The notes below the pieces were generated by a model. The model was not told the DNA's origin, did not search any database, and saw nothing but the letters and a program-made list of their open reading frames with translations. Below, piece by piece: positions 22,280 through 32,265 of a DNA stretch of 64,000 nucleotides (its first letter is position 1; each line of letters starts with the position of its first letter). A program made the translations under genes and the position numbers. The stretch comes from Methanosphaera sp. BMS (GTDB lineage Archaea; Methanobacteriota; Methanobacteria; Methanobacteriales; Methanobacteriaceae): the NCBI RefSeq assembly GCF_003268005.1, contig NZ_CP014213.1:620001-684000 (forward strand). Direction: 5' to 3'.

Positions 22280-23224
22280 TTAAATGTCAGCCTCTAGTGA
22301 TTCATCACGTTTTTTAAAGAATGATGCGTTGATTAATGTTTCATCAAATACCACGGCACTGCCTGTGATATCCTCATCATCAACCCGGTAATCAACACCT
22401 AAACCTACAGAATCATAGGATTCCATTTTGGATTTTCTAATATCCTCAAGGAAGTCTTCACTGCTTTCATCAACAATTTTGACTTCTTCATCCTGCTTTC
22501 TCATGGCATCTATGATATAGCTTTCTACTAGCCTATCATGATATTCCTTGTATCTGTCACTGTTGTATATCATTTCCAAACCAACCAGTCTTCCATTGAT
22601 ATATACAATGAATCCATTCTGGTTTTCCTGTAACTTAAACGCATCCCTATATCTATCTATATCATATGTTTTTTCCCGATAAACATCATTCAATGAATTA
22701 GTTGGACTTTCATAAGAAAGGCTGTGTTCTGTAGCAGCAATGTTGTTCCAAACTTTTTGTTGATCTGATTTATAACCTCTACGGGATTTTAATGAATTGT
22801 AAACGCTGCTTGATTTGTCACGTCTTACAAGACTGGATGCCATGTGTCTGGAAGATGCAAAATGTTGTGAATTGTAATGCCATCTACCGGCTTCTGTACA
22901 GCTTACAGGTATAATCTTTTCGCTTTTTGCCTCTATGATTATAGTGGCATTTGCGATTCTATTTTGTTTTGCACCTATAATTTCTTCACCATCCAATATA
23001 AGCAATGGCGTTACGGCGTTGTTGATTACTCTTACTTCACCTACTGAACCGCCCTCGTCGACTTCGGATATTTCAACCAAACCTAGTTCCAATCCTTTTT
23101 TCAAACTCATCAAGTCAACATCCCTATTTTCGGGAATGTTCAATCCAATAACGGTCATGTTACCAAAATGCTGTGGAGCAAATGTGTTAATATCGTTTAA
23201 TATTTCATCTAAAACCTCAGTCAT
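22280..23224 (-). CDS. ARPP-1-domain protein
   Basis: 314 residues. The N-terminal half has the signature I associate with the ARPP-1 family (ARG and rhodanese-phosphatase-associated): GLELGLVEISEVDEGGSVGEV, NNAVTPLLILDGEEIIGAKQNRI, IIPVSCTEAGRW, and INGRLVGLEM at the end of the fold. Family members are predicted to act in nucleotide or ADP-ribose-linked processes; the enzyme activity is not established. The ATG at 23224 (MTEVLDEI) follows AGGAGGT by 5 bases, so an in-frame ATG 30 bases upstream is rejected. Middle gene of three. Confidence 0.75.
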   Translation of the reverse strand: MTEVLDEILNDINTFAPQHFGNMTVIGLNIPENRDVDLMSLKKGLELGLVEISEVDEGGSVGEVRVINNAVTPLLILDGEEIIGAKQNRIANATIIIEAKSEKIIPVSCTEAGRWHYNSQHFASSRHMASSLVRRDKSSSVYNSLKSRRGYKSDQQKVWNNIAATEHSLSYESPTNSLNDVYREKTYDIDRYRDAFKLQENQNGFIVYINGRLVGLEMIYNSDRYKEYHDRLVESYIIDAMRKQDEEVKIVDESSEDFLEDIRKSKMESYDSVGLGVDYRVDDEDITGSAVVFDETLINASFFKKRDESLEADI

Positions 23225-23234
23225 CCAATACCTC

Positions 23235-23588
23235 CTAGATATAGTTAATATCACTATCGGGATTGCTTTTTTCCTGGTCTACTTCATCATTAGTAAGAAC
23301 CTTGGCAATTATCGCATCCCCTATAATGAATTTAACTTTTGCATAGTCTACATCCAATATCTTATCATATAAACGTCCTGCACTATAAGATCCTTTGGCT
23401 ACGGTTTTAACACTGTTAGCCACATAACCTGATGGGCCGGCATATCTTAGTTCAACACGTATTGCCTCATCATCATAGTTATTTTCAGGTTCTTTTACTA
23501 GCTTCATCAGAGAATTTATCTTAAATACTTTAATGCCATGAAAATGATTCACGCCATTGACTGTAAAATATATACCTTTTTCTTTCAT
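23235..23588 (-). CDS. HIRAN-domain protein
   Basis: 117 residues, a single HIRAN domain: FHGIKVFKINSLMKLVKEPENNYDDEAIRVEL, GYVANSVKTVAKGSYSAGRLYDKI. HIRAN domains bind DNA ends or stalled forks in Rad5/HLTF and occur alone in bacteria and archaea, where the role is unknown. First gene of an operon with the ARPP-1-like gene 10 bases downstream. Start ATG after AAGGAATT-type weak site. Confidence 0.85.
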   Translation of the reverse strand: MKEKGIYFTVNGVNHFHGIKVFKINSLMKLVKEPENNYDDEAIRVELRYAGPSGYVANSVKTVAKGSYSAGRLYDKILDVDYAKVKFIIGDAIIAKVLTNDEVDQEKSNPDSDINYI

Positions 23589-27039: not shown

Positions 27040-28524
27040 TTATATTAGCTTATAGTATGCCAGGAAGGATTTCATCATCTTATATGATTTTTCAACACTG
27101 CCCTTTGCTATGGTACCATGAGCTGTCTTGACTTCACAGGTTACACTGGTTATGGAATTTAGATTACAGTAATCCTCCAATGATCCAGGATATTCAGTAC
27201 CGGCCCTATTATAAATTATTGAACTGCTGCCGGTTTTACCTGCAATGTACTTTGACAGCGTGGCACTGCCGGCGGTTGGTTTATATGAACCAAATACCGC
27301 ATCACGTCCGGGTTCACCACCGGGCATTGTACAATGGAAATCACCCAATGCAACAGCTTTCTTACTTTTTGCAAAGTTGTAGACGTTATTGCTAATTGTT
27401 CCCTTCTTATTTGCTACACTATTAAGATTTATACCATTTAATGTTCGTGTATTGTTTCCTGTATAGCTTGGAGCTACAAATGGTATGATATATACCGTTC
27501 CATGAATATTAACTGTGGACAAGTCATTTATCAGTTTAACACAAGCTGATTGTGATGAAAGTTCACTTCCATGTATACCGCTTACGATAAATACTGTATT
27601 TCCCTTGCCATTTCCTAAGCATACGTAAGGTGTTCCCTTTGATGCAGCATTTATCAGTTCGTTAGTAAGGGATGACTTGGTCAGGTTATTGTATAATATC
27701 TTATTTGCCTTAATGTTTCCTTTGCTATTCCAGTTAAGCACGTTAACCTTAAGTGAAACCAATAATTTACTATCCCTACTGCTATAAGTGTATCTTTTTG
27801 TACCGCTATATTTAGCTGTTATCGTATAGTTTTTAACAACATTCAATGGTGTGTACTTTAAGCTGGCTACACCATTAACTACCTTTACCTGAGATATGCT
27901 GACACCGTTTATCTTAAATACTACTGTACCTTCATTGACTTTTACACCATTTTTATCCTTAACCAGGGCACTTATTACACATGATGTGTTTGTTTTGGCA
28001 TTGACATTACTTAATGTTACGACCGTTTGCATCTTGTTAACCTTAAGCGTTGCGTTAGAACGGTATCCATTGATTGATTTGGTACCGCCATATACAACAC
28101 TGATGTTATAGTTTTTTGCAGTCAAGTTTTTAGTATTATAAAGTATGCTGGCTTTACCGTTTTTAATATCAGTGTATCCTATACTAACACCATTTATTTT
28201 AAAGAGTACCTTTCCTGTGGTGATATATTTATTTGAAGTTTTATCCACTATGGTTGCCTTAAGCAATGCCTTATTGGAATAGGTTACTGTTGTATCGGCA
28301 ACTTTGATCTTTGAGCTATGCTTTGCAGTTGCCGTCTTTAAATCCTTAGAATCCTTAATAGAAGAATCCTGCAATGATTGTTGATTGTCATTTTCTTGGT
28401 TGATTGTATTATCAATTGTACTCTCAGCATTAACCATTGTTGTATCATTTGATGTGGCAGATACACTTGAAATGATGGTTAATGCAAATAGAATAAACAA
28501 TACCATAATCGTTTTATTCTTTAT
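27040..28524 (-). CDS. Secreted Ig-like protein with C-terminal M14/AstE-type zinc carboxypeptidase domain
   Basis: About 494 residues. Signal peptide (KNKTIMVLFILFALTIISSVSA), a polar linker, two Ig-like domains (about 80-255 with VLFKINGVSI and VVFKINGVSI repeats as in adhesin-like proteins), then a domain with GIHGSE (zinc His and Glu, about residues 317-321), NTRTLNGINLN (Arg and Asn of M14 substrate site), LGDFHCTMPGG (third zinc ligand His) and TCEVKT (catalytic Glu). It probably cuts peptides at the cell surface, e.g. of pseudomurein (inference). AGGAGGT stands six bases before an in-frame ATA at 28524, which restores the Lys-rich start of the signal peptide; the first ATG is at 28506. 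Confidence 0.8.
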   Translation of the reverse strand: MKNKTIMVLFILFALTIISSVSATSNDTTMVNAESTIDNTINQENDNQQSLQDSSIKDSKDLKTATAKHSSKIKVADTTVTYSNKALLKATIVDKTSNKYITTGKVLFKINGVSIGYTDIKNGKASILYNTKNLTAKNYNISVVYGGTKSINGYRSNATLKVNKMQTVVTLSNVNAKTNTSCVISALVKDKNGVKVNEGTVVFKINGVSISQVKVVNGVASLKYTPLNVVKNYTITAKYSGTKRYTYSSRDSKLLVSLKVNVLNWNSKGNIKANKILYNNLTKSSLTNELINAASKGTPYVCLGNGKGNTVFIVSGIHGSELSSQSACVKLINDLSTVNIHGTVYIIPFVAPSYTGNNTRTLNGINLNSVANKKGTISNNVYNFAKSKKAVALGDFHCTMPGGEPGRDAVFGSYKPTAGSATLSKYIAGKTGSSSIIYNRAGTEYPGSLEDYCNLNSITSVTCEVKTAHGTIAKGSVEKSYKMMKSFLAYYKLI

Positions 28525-28739
28525 GTTGAGACCTCCTTATTTAATAAATTTTTTTAACTTTCATATTATATATTATATTTAATAATTAACTGTTAAAAAG
28601 ATTTAGGAATTTATTAACAAGACGCATATTATATCCTGATATTTAACATTAAATAATAAAATTGTCGTGGAAAAATAAATTAAATGATATAACCAAGTAA
28701 TGATATAAATATCTATAATTAAGATAAGGGTATTTTAAT

Positions 28740-29309
28740 ATGAATTCCAAACTAAATAAGAACTTGTCCAGCGATGAATTTAGGGAGTATTATTTCTTAA
28801 AGGAGGACTTGGTTGATTTTTGCAGAAATGAAGGCCTTAAGGTCTCGGGCAATAAAAAGGATCTTGAAGAAAGAATCATATACTACTTGGATAATGATAA
28901 AAGCCTTGACAATACCGAAACTGCCTTAAAAAGAAATAAACACGTGGATATATCAATGGACACCGTTATAGGTGAAAACTTTGTTTGTTCACAGGAAGTA
29001 AGAACGTTTTTTCAAAACAAGATTGGTTCAAACTTCAAATTTAAGGTAGGATTTCAGAAGTGGTTAAAGTCTAACCCCGATAAGACATTTGCCGATGCCA
29101 TCATGGCATATGAAGAAATAACCAATACTCTTAAAAATAGTGATACAACTATTGACAGTCAATTCCAATATAATACTTATATCCGGGATTTTTTTAATTC
29201 AAATAAAGATAAATCTTTTAAGGATGCAGTTAAATGTTGGAATTATAAGAAGAATCTTAAGGGATTGCATAAATATGAGGACAGTGATCTTATAGTCCTG
29301 GAAAAATAA
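28740..29309 (+). CDS. SAP-domain protein (DUF6434-like)
   Basis: 189 residues. N-terminal SAP-like helix-extension-helix (LKEDLVDFCRNEGLKVSGNKKDLEERIIYYL, about 20-55), then a region with EVRTFFQNKIGSNFKFKVGFQKWLKSNPDKTFADAIMAYEEI, repeated in weaker form as YIRDFFNSNKDKSFKDAVKCWNYKK. SAP motifs bind DNA or RNA; the second part resembles DUF6434, which usually accompanies SAP in small bacterial and archaeal proteins. Single gene; AAGGGT before ATG. Confidence 0.75.
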   Translation: MNSKLNKNLSSDEFREYYFLKEDLVDFCRNEGLKVSGNKKDLEERIIYYLDNDKSLDNTETALKRNKHVDISMDTVIGENFVCSQEVRTFFQNKIGSNFKFKVGFQKWLKSNPDKTFADAIMAYEEITNTLKNSDTTIDSQFQYNTYIRDFFNSNKDKSFKDAVKCWNYKKNLKGLHKYEDSDLIVLEK

Positions 29310-30203: not shown

Positions 30204-31532
30204 ATGAACGTAAAACATAACCTGGCATTAAGAATGGGTAAACTAACCTTAGCTATTCTCAAACTATTTAACAAAAATGGTACTGCACTACCGGGAAAGG
30301 TTGCTTTAACCATCGATAACTCATTTTTAGATGTCATAAACAAAAGTTGTGATAGAATCATATTAATCACTGGAACAAATGGTAAAACAACTACCAATAA
30401 CATCATTAACCATATAATTAGTGATTATAATGTGTTGTCAAACCTTAGAGGTGCCAATATGCCTCAAGGTATAGCCAGTACATATGTAAGAAACACCCAG
30501 AAAAGCTATGATTATGGAGTTTTTGAGGTAGATGAAGGATCATTGGACTACATCAGCAGCTTTTTGAAGCCTGATTATATTATTCTAACCAACTTCTTTA
30601 GAGATCAGCTTGACCGTTACGGTGAAATTGAAGGGATAATCAATGAAGTACTTGAAGACATCAAGCTGCTACCGGAAGCCACGTTAATAATTAACTGTGA
30701 TGATCCATATGTCAATCAGTTTAGAAATAAGTTGGATAATGAAGTAATCGGATTTGGAGTAGACATCAAATCAGAATCAGCAGAGAATTATCTGAATCTT
30801 AAGAAATGTCCATTATGTGGACGTAAACTGACCTATACCAATTATTATTATGGACATCTGGGCACATATGAATGTCAGGAATGCGGATTCAATAATAACA
30901 AAAAAGAATACAGTGTCATTTCTGCTGTTGAAAATGATTCTTCACAGACAATTACCATAAAACATGATAATAATGAATATGTCATCGAATATCCATATGT
31001 TGGATTGTACAATGCATATAACCTATGTGGTGCATTTGCATTATCGGATGAATTGAATTTTAATCTTGATAAAAGTATTGAAAAGATAGAATCATTCACC
31101 TTTAGCATAGGCAGGATGGAAGAGTTTAACTATAAAAATAAGATAGTGAAGGTTATCTTAACAAAAAATCCAGTTGGTTTAGGCCAGGTAACCGACATAA
31201 TATCCAATGATGATAGAAAAAAGAGCATACTGCACATATTGAATGATAATCCTGCAGATGGTAGAGACATATCCTGGATATGGGATGCAACCACCAAAAT
31301 TGATAATGATGACAGTGTAATAAATTATTATTGCAGCGGCATAAGGGCAGAGGATATAGCCCTTAAAAAGAAGTACGACGATGTAGATGTCGAAAAGATT
31401 CATATTGATGATAATATGTACAGTTGTATCGATACGGCCATAGAAGATGATGTGGAGATTGTATATGTACTTCCTACATATACGGCCGTATTTGATACAA
31501 GAGATTATATTAGTAAAATTGTAAACAGATGA
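30204..31532 (+). CDS. murT: MurT-like Mur ligase (lipid II isoglutaminyl synthase catalytic subunit)
   Basis: 442 residues. ATP loop GTNGKTTTNN, MPQGIASTYVRN, FEVDEGSLDYI, TNFFRDQLDRYGEI (Mur ligase central domain), a Cys4 zinc ribbon CPLCGRKL...YECQECGF inserted as in MurT, and the C-terminal DUF1727 part (KNPVGLGQV, ILNDNPADGRDISWIWD). In Gram-positive bacteria MurT with GatD amidates the D-Glu of lipid II. In a pseudomurein-making archaeon the acceptor must differ, since its peptides contain L-amino acids. The GatD-like gene follows after 10 bases. Confidence 0.85.
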   Translation: MNVKHNLALRMGKLTLAILKLFNKNGTALPGKVALTIDNSFLDVINKSCDRIILITGTNGKTTTNNIINHIISDYNVLSNLRGANMPQGIASTYVRNTQKSYDYGVFEVDEGSLDYISSFLKPDYIILTNFFRDQLDRYGEIEGIINEVLEDIKLLPEATLIINCDDPYVNQFRNKLDNEVIGFGVDIKSESAENYLNLKKCPLCGRKLTYTNYYYGHLGTYECQECGFNNNKKEYSVISAVENDSSQTITIKHDNNEYVIEYPYVGLYNAYNLCGAFALSDELNFNLDKSIEKIESFTFSIGRMEEFNYKNKIVKVILTKNPVGLGQVTDIISNDDRKKSILHILNDNPADGRDISWIWDATTKIDNDDSVINYYCSGIRAEDIALKKKYDDVDVEKIHIDDNMYSCIDTAIEDDVEIVYVLPTYTAVFDTRDYISKIVNR

Positions 31533-31542
31533 GGTATAAAAA

Positions 31543-32265
31543 ATGCAGCTAGATCTATTTCACCTATACCCGGACATGCTAAACCTTTATGGTGATACCG
31601 GCAATGTCCGATGTCTTACAAAAAGAGCTGAAACTCGCGGCATACATGTTAACATACATAACTTTAGTGATGATAATAAAGACGATTTGAATGATGGCGA
31701 CTTGTTCTTTATAGGTGGAGGTTCAGATAAATCACAGCAATTAGTTTATAGGGATTTTCTCGACTATAAGGACACTTTCAAGGATTTGATTGATAATGAT
31801 AAGGTAGTTCTTGCAGTATGTGGTGGTTATCAGTTACTTGGAGCCGAATATATTGACAAGGAAGGAAATTGTCTGCCTGGTCTTAATATCCTGGATTATA
31901 ACACTGCTTCAAGTGATAAAAAAAGAATTATTGGCAACATCATTATTAAAAGTAGTTTGGATATTACTCCCAAGACCATCGTAGGTTTTGAAAATCATGG
32001 CGGTAGAACATACAGTAAATATGATGCACTGGGGGATGTTTTAGTTGGCTATGGCAATAATGAGGATGACAAAACAGAGGGTGTGGTTTATAAAAATTAT
32101 ATTGGAACATATCTTCATGGACCTATACTTCCAAAAAATCCACACTTGGCTGACTATCTTATACTAAAGGCCCTCCAAAACAAATATGATATCGATTCAT
32201 TAGAACCGATTGATGACTCAATAGAAATGAAAGCTCATCAAAAAGTATTAAAATTATATGGCTAA
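31543..32265 (+). CDS. gatD: GatD-like glutamine amidotransferase
   Basis: 240 residues of the CobB/CobQ-type class-I amidotransferase fold: LYPDMLNLYGDTGNVRCLTKRAE, FIGGGSDKSQQLV, LAVCGGYQLLG with the nucleophile Cys, GFENHGGRT and GTYLHGPILPKNPHLAD with the catalytic His. GatD supplies ammonia from glutamine to MurT. Spacing of 10 bases to murT and AGAGGT before the ATG (GAGGTATAAAAA) show an operon. Confidence 0.88.
   Translation: MQLDLFHLYPDMLNLYGDTGNVRCLTKRAETRGIHVNIHNFSDDNKDDLNDGDLFFIGGGSDKSQQLVYRDFLDYKDTFKDLIDNDKVVLAVCGGYQLLGAEYIDKEGNCLPGLNILDYNTASSDKKRIIGNIIIKSSLDITPKTIVGFENHGGRTYSKYDALGDVLVGYGNNEDDKTEGVVYKNYIGTYLHGPILPKNPHLADYLILKALQNKYDIDSLEPIDDSIEMKAHQKVLKLYG

Follow-up and report, generated by a model that had tools for sequence, protein, structure and literature searches.

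A candidate pseudomurein-trimming zinc hydrolase with an M14/AspA fold and Ig-like domains in Methanosphaera sp. BMS

The window analysed here, a 64,000-nucleotide stretch covering positions 620001-684000 of a single-contig genome of 2,868,093 bases, contains a gene that probably encodes the methanogen's own secreted zinc hydrolase for trimming pseudomurein peptides, a reading suggested by the archaeal-wall-binding modules of its close relatives. The fold, the active-site residues, the taxon range, the fusions to pseudomurein-binding repeats (PMBRs) and the gene neighbourhood were computed, and from these we infer catalysis, substrate and bond. A pseudomurein zinc hydrolase encoded by the host would belong to a barely known class of enzymes. 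The described pseudomurein hydrolases that we found are phage-derived (PMC4592898, PMC3124540), and the cross-linking of pseudomurein has been reported to require the removal of a terminal residue, a step that probably falls to transglutaminases but for which no enzyme had been characterised (PMC2812497).

Domain architecture and active site

The features of the gene are collected in Table 1. The first-pass annotation had read the product as a signal peptide and Ig-like domains joined to an M14-type domain, and this layout was borne out by the hydrophobic N-terminus, by the Big_3_5 match (64.8 bits over two stretches, Pfam) and by the M14/AspA fold. The protein combines an N-terminus of signal or membrane-anchor type (by hydrophobicity) with Ig-like (Big) domains, as methanogen adhesin-like proteins do, and has no PMBR. 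The domain table of a survey of adhesin-like proteins in M. smithii and M. stadtmanae includes no domain of the M14 kind.

Table 1. Features of the M14 gene and its product (positions in the window; residues in ATG numbering).
Feature	Position	Strand	Remarks
CDS	27040..28524	-	probable start ATA 28524; first ATG 28506; stop 27040-27042
ATG-started reading frame	27040..28506	-	488 aa
Shine-Dalgarno-like AGGAGG	28532..28537	-	7 nt ahead of ATA; from sequence
Signal peptide-like N-terminus	28456..28524	-	K-rich then hydrophobic, SVSA at end; hydrophobicity only
Ig-like Big_3_5 domain no. 1	28036..28305	-	approximate limits, read off the sequence; Pfam counts 2 stretches
Ig-like Big_3_5 domain no. 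2	27772..28020	-	residues 163-245; Pfam
M14 / AstE-AspA-type catalytic domain	27043..27744	-	residues 255-488; Pfam, profile, fold model
Zinc-ligand motif HGSE	27562..27573	-	H312, E315; conservation among relatives
R354	27445..27447	-	equivalent of M14 oxyanion-binding Arg; conservation among relatives
N362-S363	27418..27423	-	NR-pair position, Arg replaced by Ser; conservation, profile
H391	27334..27336	-	third zinc ligand, within G-D-F-H; conservation among relatives
E458	27133..27135	-	general base; conservation among relatives

Taken alone, the match to AstE_AspA_cat (PF24827) is marginal (residues 302-362; 27.2 bits, cut-off 25), and Peptidase_M14 stays below its cut-off (16.6 against 21.6). 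However, 55 of 60 full-length relatives match PF24827 at E<=1e-3, and a profile built from 79 relatives finds solved AspA-family structures at E 2.3e-9. The AlphaFold model of the C-terminal domain (234 residues; pLDDT 97.3, pTM 0.94) aligns with M14/AspA structures at Z 17-21.5 over 190-200 residues (VIA-align), and the matches listed include DoeB (6twm; Z 21.5, rmsd 2.4 over 197), Csd4 (Z 21.2, 193 residues), CphZ (Z 18.6) and MpaA (Z 17.6). The agreement goes far beyond chance, and the assignment of the domain to the M14/AspA type is confirmed.

The residues singled out in the first-pass annotation (HxxE, a later His, NTR...GINLN and a final Glu) are largely retained; of the structure prediction that had been proposed for the zinc site, the model is of high confidence and the zinc-site residues are present in the sequence. 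In ATG numbering, H312/E315 (HxxE), R354, N362, D389-x-H391 and E458 are invariant or nearly so, and 143 of 147 distinct domains, the window domain included, retain all seven M14 residues (H, E, R, N, D, H, E); the survey comprised 147 of the 148 distinct domains, one with fewer than 170 profile positions having been dropped. The position after the conserved Asn, in which Arg is usual in the family, is occupied by Ser (S363) in the window protein. When secreted forms are defined by a hydrophobicity rule (13-residue mean >=2.2), this Arg is found in 11 of 69 secreted-type domains, against 69 of the 78 that lack a hydrophobic N-terminus. In Csd4, the Arg that fixes the free C-terminus was described as the key determinant of carboxypeptidase action (PMC4220969), and by that measure the window protein, with S363, would not class as a carboxypeptidase. 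As most secreted forms have lost the NR-pair Arg, amidase or endopeptidase action is, by analogy, likelier for them than carboxypeptidase action. The C71-type cysteine transglutaminase-like domain is absent from the window protein and was found solely in other genomes, in proteins of neighbouring genes.

Family range, branches and links to pseudomurein

Pseudomurein is made by the class Methanobacteria, and the expectation that relatives would be found mainly in pseudomurein makers agrees with their concentration in this class. Domain matches were obtained in 131 of 138 Methanobacteriaceae genomes, 143 of 150 genomes of the order and 144 of 151 of the phylum set, and in 20 of 20 genera of the class; Methanopyrus lies outside the genomes covered. 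Scanning named genomes with a pattern yielded 104 relatives, and the 80 of these that were listed bear Methanobacteria-type names or are labelled only 'archaeon' or Euryarchaeota (3 rows). Among 14 control genomes, through which alone the archaea without pseudomurein were sampled, PF24827 matched only in E. coli and Haloferax.

The family falls into a cytoplasmic branch of about 250 residues and a secreted branch; the tree was built from 145 of 147 rows (two were dropped), and most of its 12 'unk' rows are truncated or unclear. Of the 14 cytoplasmic-branch loci examined, 13 have argG within 10 kb and 13 have a YdjM-like gene (Pfam) within the same distance; the names argG and, for the genes that follow it, ehb are our presumption. 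This proximity to argG suggests that the family ancestor was an amino-acid deacylase. In many genomes, the secreted form sits in a conserved block alongside genes that we take to be secDF, argC and pyrI. At least 67 of 151 genomes hold, among the fetched loci, a member that is neither cytoplasmic nor a pseudoenzyme. Within Methanosphaera (genus g1), an active secreted form occurs in only 4 of 20 genomes (G000, G112, G119 and G123), and 4 of the 20 have no family match at all (G107, G117, G118 and G122). These few active secreted copies, together with the single, cytoplasmic copy of G042, indicate that the wall does not depend on the secreted enzyme. In Methanobrevibacter-type genomes (L022, L025, L017, L011, L021 and L029), secreted Ig-M14 genes were seen in tandem pairs, of which one member has the NR-pair Arg and the other lacks it. 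One surface protein (L034:4309-8499, forward strand) unites M14, Chlam_PMP repeats and a papain-family C1 protease.

The links to pseudomurein are of several kinds. In three genomes of family f2, proteins of the order signal peptide-M14-PMBR score 73.0, 75.5 and 67.6 bits for PMBR (Pfam) and carry three repeats each by our own HMM, three being the number reported to be needed for pseudomurein binding (PMC3124540). In G026, Ig, PMBR and M14 follow one another in a single chain (PMBR 33.6 bits against a cut-off of 24.9). PMBRs are carried by only 4 of the 145 tree rows, and their distribution requires two changes on the tree, that is, two separate gains. Among ten loci of the secreted branch for which long flanks were available (L046, L048, L140, L143, L149 and L155-L159), five contain both a PMBR gene belonging to a single cluster, each verified with our own HMM, and transglutaminase-like genes or fragments; two have the PMBR fused to M14, L157 shows a shared Y/K-rich module, and two (L155 and L156) have no PMBR, transglutaminase-like or shared-module link nearby. 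In three Methanothermobacter-type genomes, a PMBR gene adjoins the secreted M14 gene and a secreted transglutaminase-like gene lies within 10 kb, as a broken copy in L140. The neighbour of the secreted M14 gene in G147, which we take to be M. thermautotrophicus, holds the best PMBR of that genome (49.9 bits). In G136 (L048), the M14 protein and the adjacent transglutaminase-like protein have 145 N-terminal residues in common (64% identity, E 6e-29); transglutaminases are published candidates for pseudomurein cross-linking (PMC11915815). As the window protein has Ig domains where other members have PMBRs, we infer rather than observe its attachment to the wall. The first-pass annotation had suggested a wall-remodelling peptidase: the PMBR fusions, shared modules and neighbours favour the wall role, and since deacylases and amidases are among the closest characterised folds, 'peptidase' may be too restrictive a term.

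These ties between secreted forms and PMBRs or transglutaminase-like wall proteins, which recur across the family, together with the loss of the NR-pair Arg in 58 of 69 secreted forms, make it unlikely that the wall is only an attachment site for a surface N-acyl-amino-acid deacylase or carboxypeptidase that scavenges rumen nutrients, acting on small acylated amino acids or peptides as AstE, AspA and DoeB do. That reading draws on DoeB and AspA-family proteins as the best sequence and fold matches, on the argG proximity of the cytoplasmic branch, and on the annotation of M. ruminantium M1, which has astE/aspA genes with astE placed under amino-acid metabolism (PMC7772410). A weapon or feeding tool that targets the peptidoglycan of bacterial neighbours, its Ig domains serving as adhesin, is very unlikely: the fold is near that of two enzymes acting on murein peptides, Csd4 and MpaA, bacteria-killing peptidoglycan hydrolases have been reported from archaea (PMC12352652), and binding of PMBRs to bacterial spheroplasts has been reported as well (PMC3124540), but the family range found here is limited to the pseudomurein class, its fusions are to pseudomurein-binding repeats, and in the archaeal survey the classes that make pseudomurein account for just two of the hydrolase homologues (PMC12352652). 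A non-catalytic adhesin whose M14 domain merely binds peptides, as the adhesin-type Ig domains in the same chain and a pseudoenzyme clade within the family might suggest, is most improbable, since the window domain keeps all seven residues and the only four domains without them belong to a single clade.

In that clade (support 100/99), the zinc Glu is changed to Gln, the Arg to Lys or Glu, and the catalytic Glu to Leu. Its members, one of them in the window's own genome (C1:82054-82731, L051:8980-9942) and the others at L147:7818-8780, L182 and L043:3398-4216, have a hydrophobic N-terminal segment, which in three of the four follows a zinc-ribbon-like stretch, and by sequence they look like membrane-anchored pseudoenzymes.

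Start codons and gene neighbourhood

In the window gene, an in-frame ATA follows the AGGAGG at 7 nt and the first ATG falls inside the signal peptide, so that translation probably begins at the ATA. Like many of its relatives, the gene appears to use an AUA/AUU start behind a strong Shine-Dalgarno sequence. Among M14 ORFs with GGAGG and an in-frame codon 6-9 nt on, this codon is ATT, ATA or ATC in 11 cases, ATG, GTG or TTG in none and another codon in 35, which were left unsorted and many of which intragenic GGAGG may explain; the counts at the same position in non-M14 ORFs are 105 canonical, 17 ATH and 149 other (Fisher p 6e-9, or 1e-4 with one case per lineage). As ATH turns up 9 and 15 times in the shifted frames, most of the 17 non-M14 ATH cases are probably background. 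A looser tally of secreted M14 genes, in which canonical codons were preferred where present, gave ATG 13 and TTG 3 against ATT 14, ATA 4 and ATC 3, the rest being 6 other codons and 21 genes with no SD-like site. The ATT/ATA/ATC cases are the window gene (28506-28537, reverse strand) and those in L053, L054, L048, L065, L155, L156, L170, L014, L015 and L019. The same non-ATG pattern was seen in transglutaminase-like neighbours (L048, L149 and L158). Conserved non-AUG initiation in secreted M14 genes is thus possible; no account of the start codon of this gene was seen among the open-licence papers listed.

A MurT (PF08353) and GatD-like (PF07685) pair is encoded in the window at 30204-32262 (forward strand), 1.7 kb from the M14 gene. 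This proximity was judged incidental, because the association is not conserved for the secreted gene: MurT lies at least 84 kb from every M14 member found in G019, G037, G042 and G116, and a MurT match at E<=1e-20 occurs in only 74 of 149 genomes of the order. An exception is G150, in which a MurT/GatD-like pair is about 4 kb from a cytoplasmic M14 gene (L142). The nearest orthologues (L053-L055) have no neighbours in common with the window, apart from weak adhesin-type or other matches. The window also holds a SAP + DUF6434 protein gene divergent from the M14 gene (28740-29306, forward strand) and an ARPP-1 protein gene adjoining that of a HIRAN-domain protein (22283-23588, reverse strand). 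An origin from a virus or plasmid was rejected on searches of viral contigs (4 pattern matches, no relative among them), phage records (no match) and plasmids (9 weak bacterial matches, none covering 80%).

Proposed mechanism and comparison with known systems

We propose that the enzyme would be exported via Sec and retained at the surface through its Ig-like domains. By analogy with M14 enzymes, zinc would be bound by H312, E315 and H391, water activated by E458 and the carbonyl steadied by R354. With S363 in place of the Arg that grips the C-terminus in carboxypeptidases, the domain would probably cut an amide inside the wall peptide, not only a terminal residue; candidate bonds are the gamma-Glu or epsilon-Lys isopeptide bonds, or the uronic acid-Glu bond. 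AstE cuts N-acyl-glutamate. A more specific version, which we put forward tentatively and hold to be rather doubtful, is that the Methanobacteria have here a pseudomurein amidase of their own, a zinc enzyme of AstE/AspA fold and counterpart of the bacterial amidases, which would act on the N-acyl-glutamate bond between the peptide and the glycan's talosaminuronic acid, its output being kept low by AUA/AUU starts behind a strong Shine-Dalgarno sequence. If a wall-trimming role is correct, wall growth and division would become testable in Methanothermobacter, for which genetic tools have reportedly been developed, and a second lytic reagent for pseudomurein and a target in rumen methanogens would be at hand.

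Among the open-licence papers listed, we saw no description of a pseudomurein M14 peptidase, of a succinylglutamate desuccinylase in Methanobacteriales, or of this family as a wall enzyme. A similar candidate is OG0000169, which Lupo et al. (2025) describe as a 'Zn peptidase', secreted, pseudomurein-specific and near cluster B (PMC11915815). Its likely gene in G147 (L162:5020-5718, forward strand) has HPLE, DVH and YENF in the same order as the family motifs. At L162:4323-5718 (forward strand), near a gene that we take, from its motif, to be MobA-like, lie the genes of a PMBR protein and of a secreted M14-like protein that matches no Pfam family; the M14-like gene is probably OG0000169, judging by its position. 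Identity of the window family with OG0000169 was rejected, since the G147 family members lie at 774.8 and 1144.9 kb and the MobA-like gene near 471 kb, and hhalign gave no significant profile match between the OG0000169 candidate and the M14 family (probability 0.4%, E 0.14); OG0000169 stays a lead.

With the AstE/AspA/DoeB deacylases (PF24827), the window domain has the Pfam family, the zinc residues and the fold in common, but the window protein is secreted, is fused to Ig domains and has NS instead of NR, its domain is shorter (234 residues against 326 in DoeB), and its identity to the best PDB matches is 17-18%. MpaA, a murein tripeptide amidase, and CphZ, a cyanophycin dipeptidase, belong to the same fold class and cut unusual amide or isopeptide bonds; unlike the window protein, they are bacterial and have other partners and substrates. 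Csd4, the M14 D,L-carboxypeptidase of Helicobacter pylori murein, also acts on wall peptides and carries an Ig-like domain, but its metal ligand Gln46 replaces the His that the window domain has, and the equivalent of Arg94, which holds the free C-terminus, is lost in the window domain (PMC4220969). Finally, PeiW and PeiP (C71) have pseudomurein as their substrate and contain motifs that bind it (PMC4592898), but they are phage-borne cysteine enzymes with a transglutaminase-type triad, in a domain unrelated to the M14 domain of the window protein.
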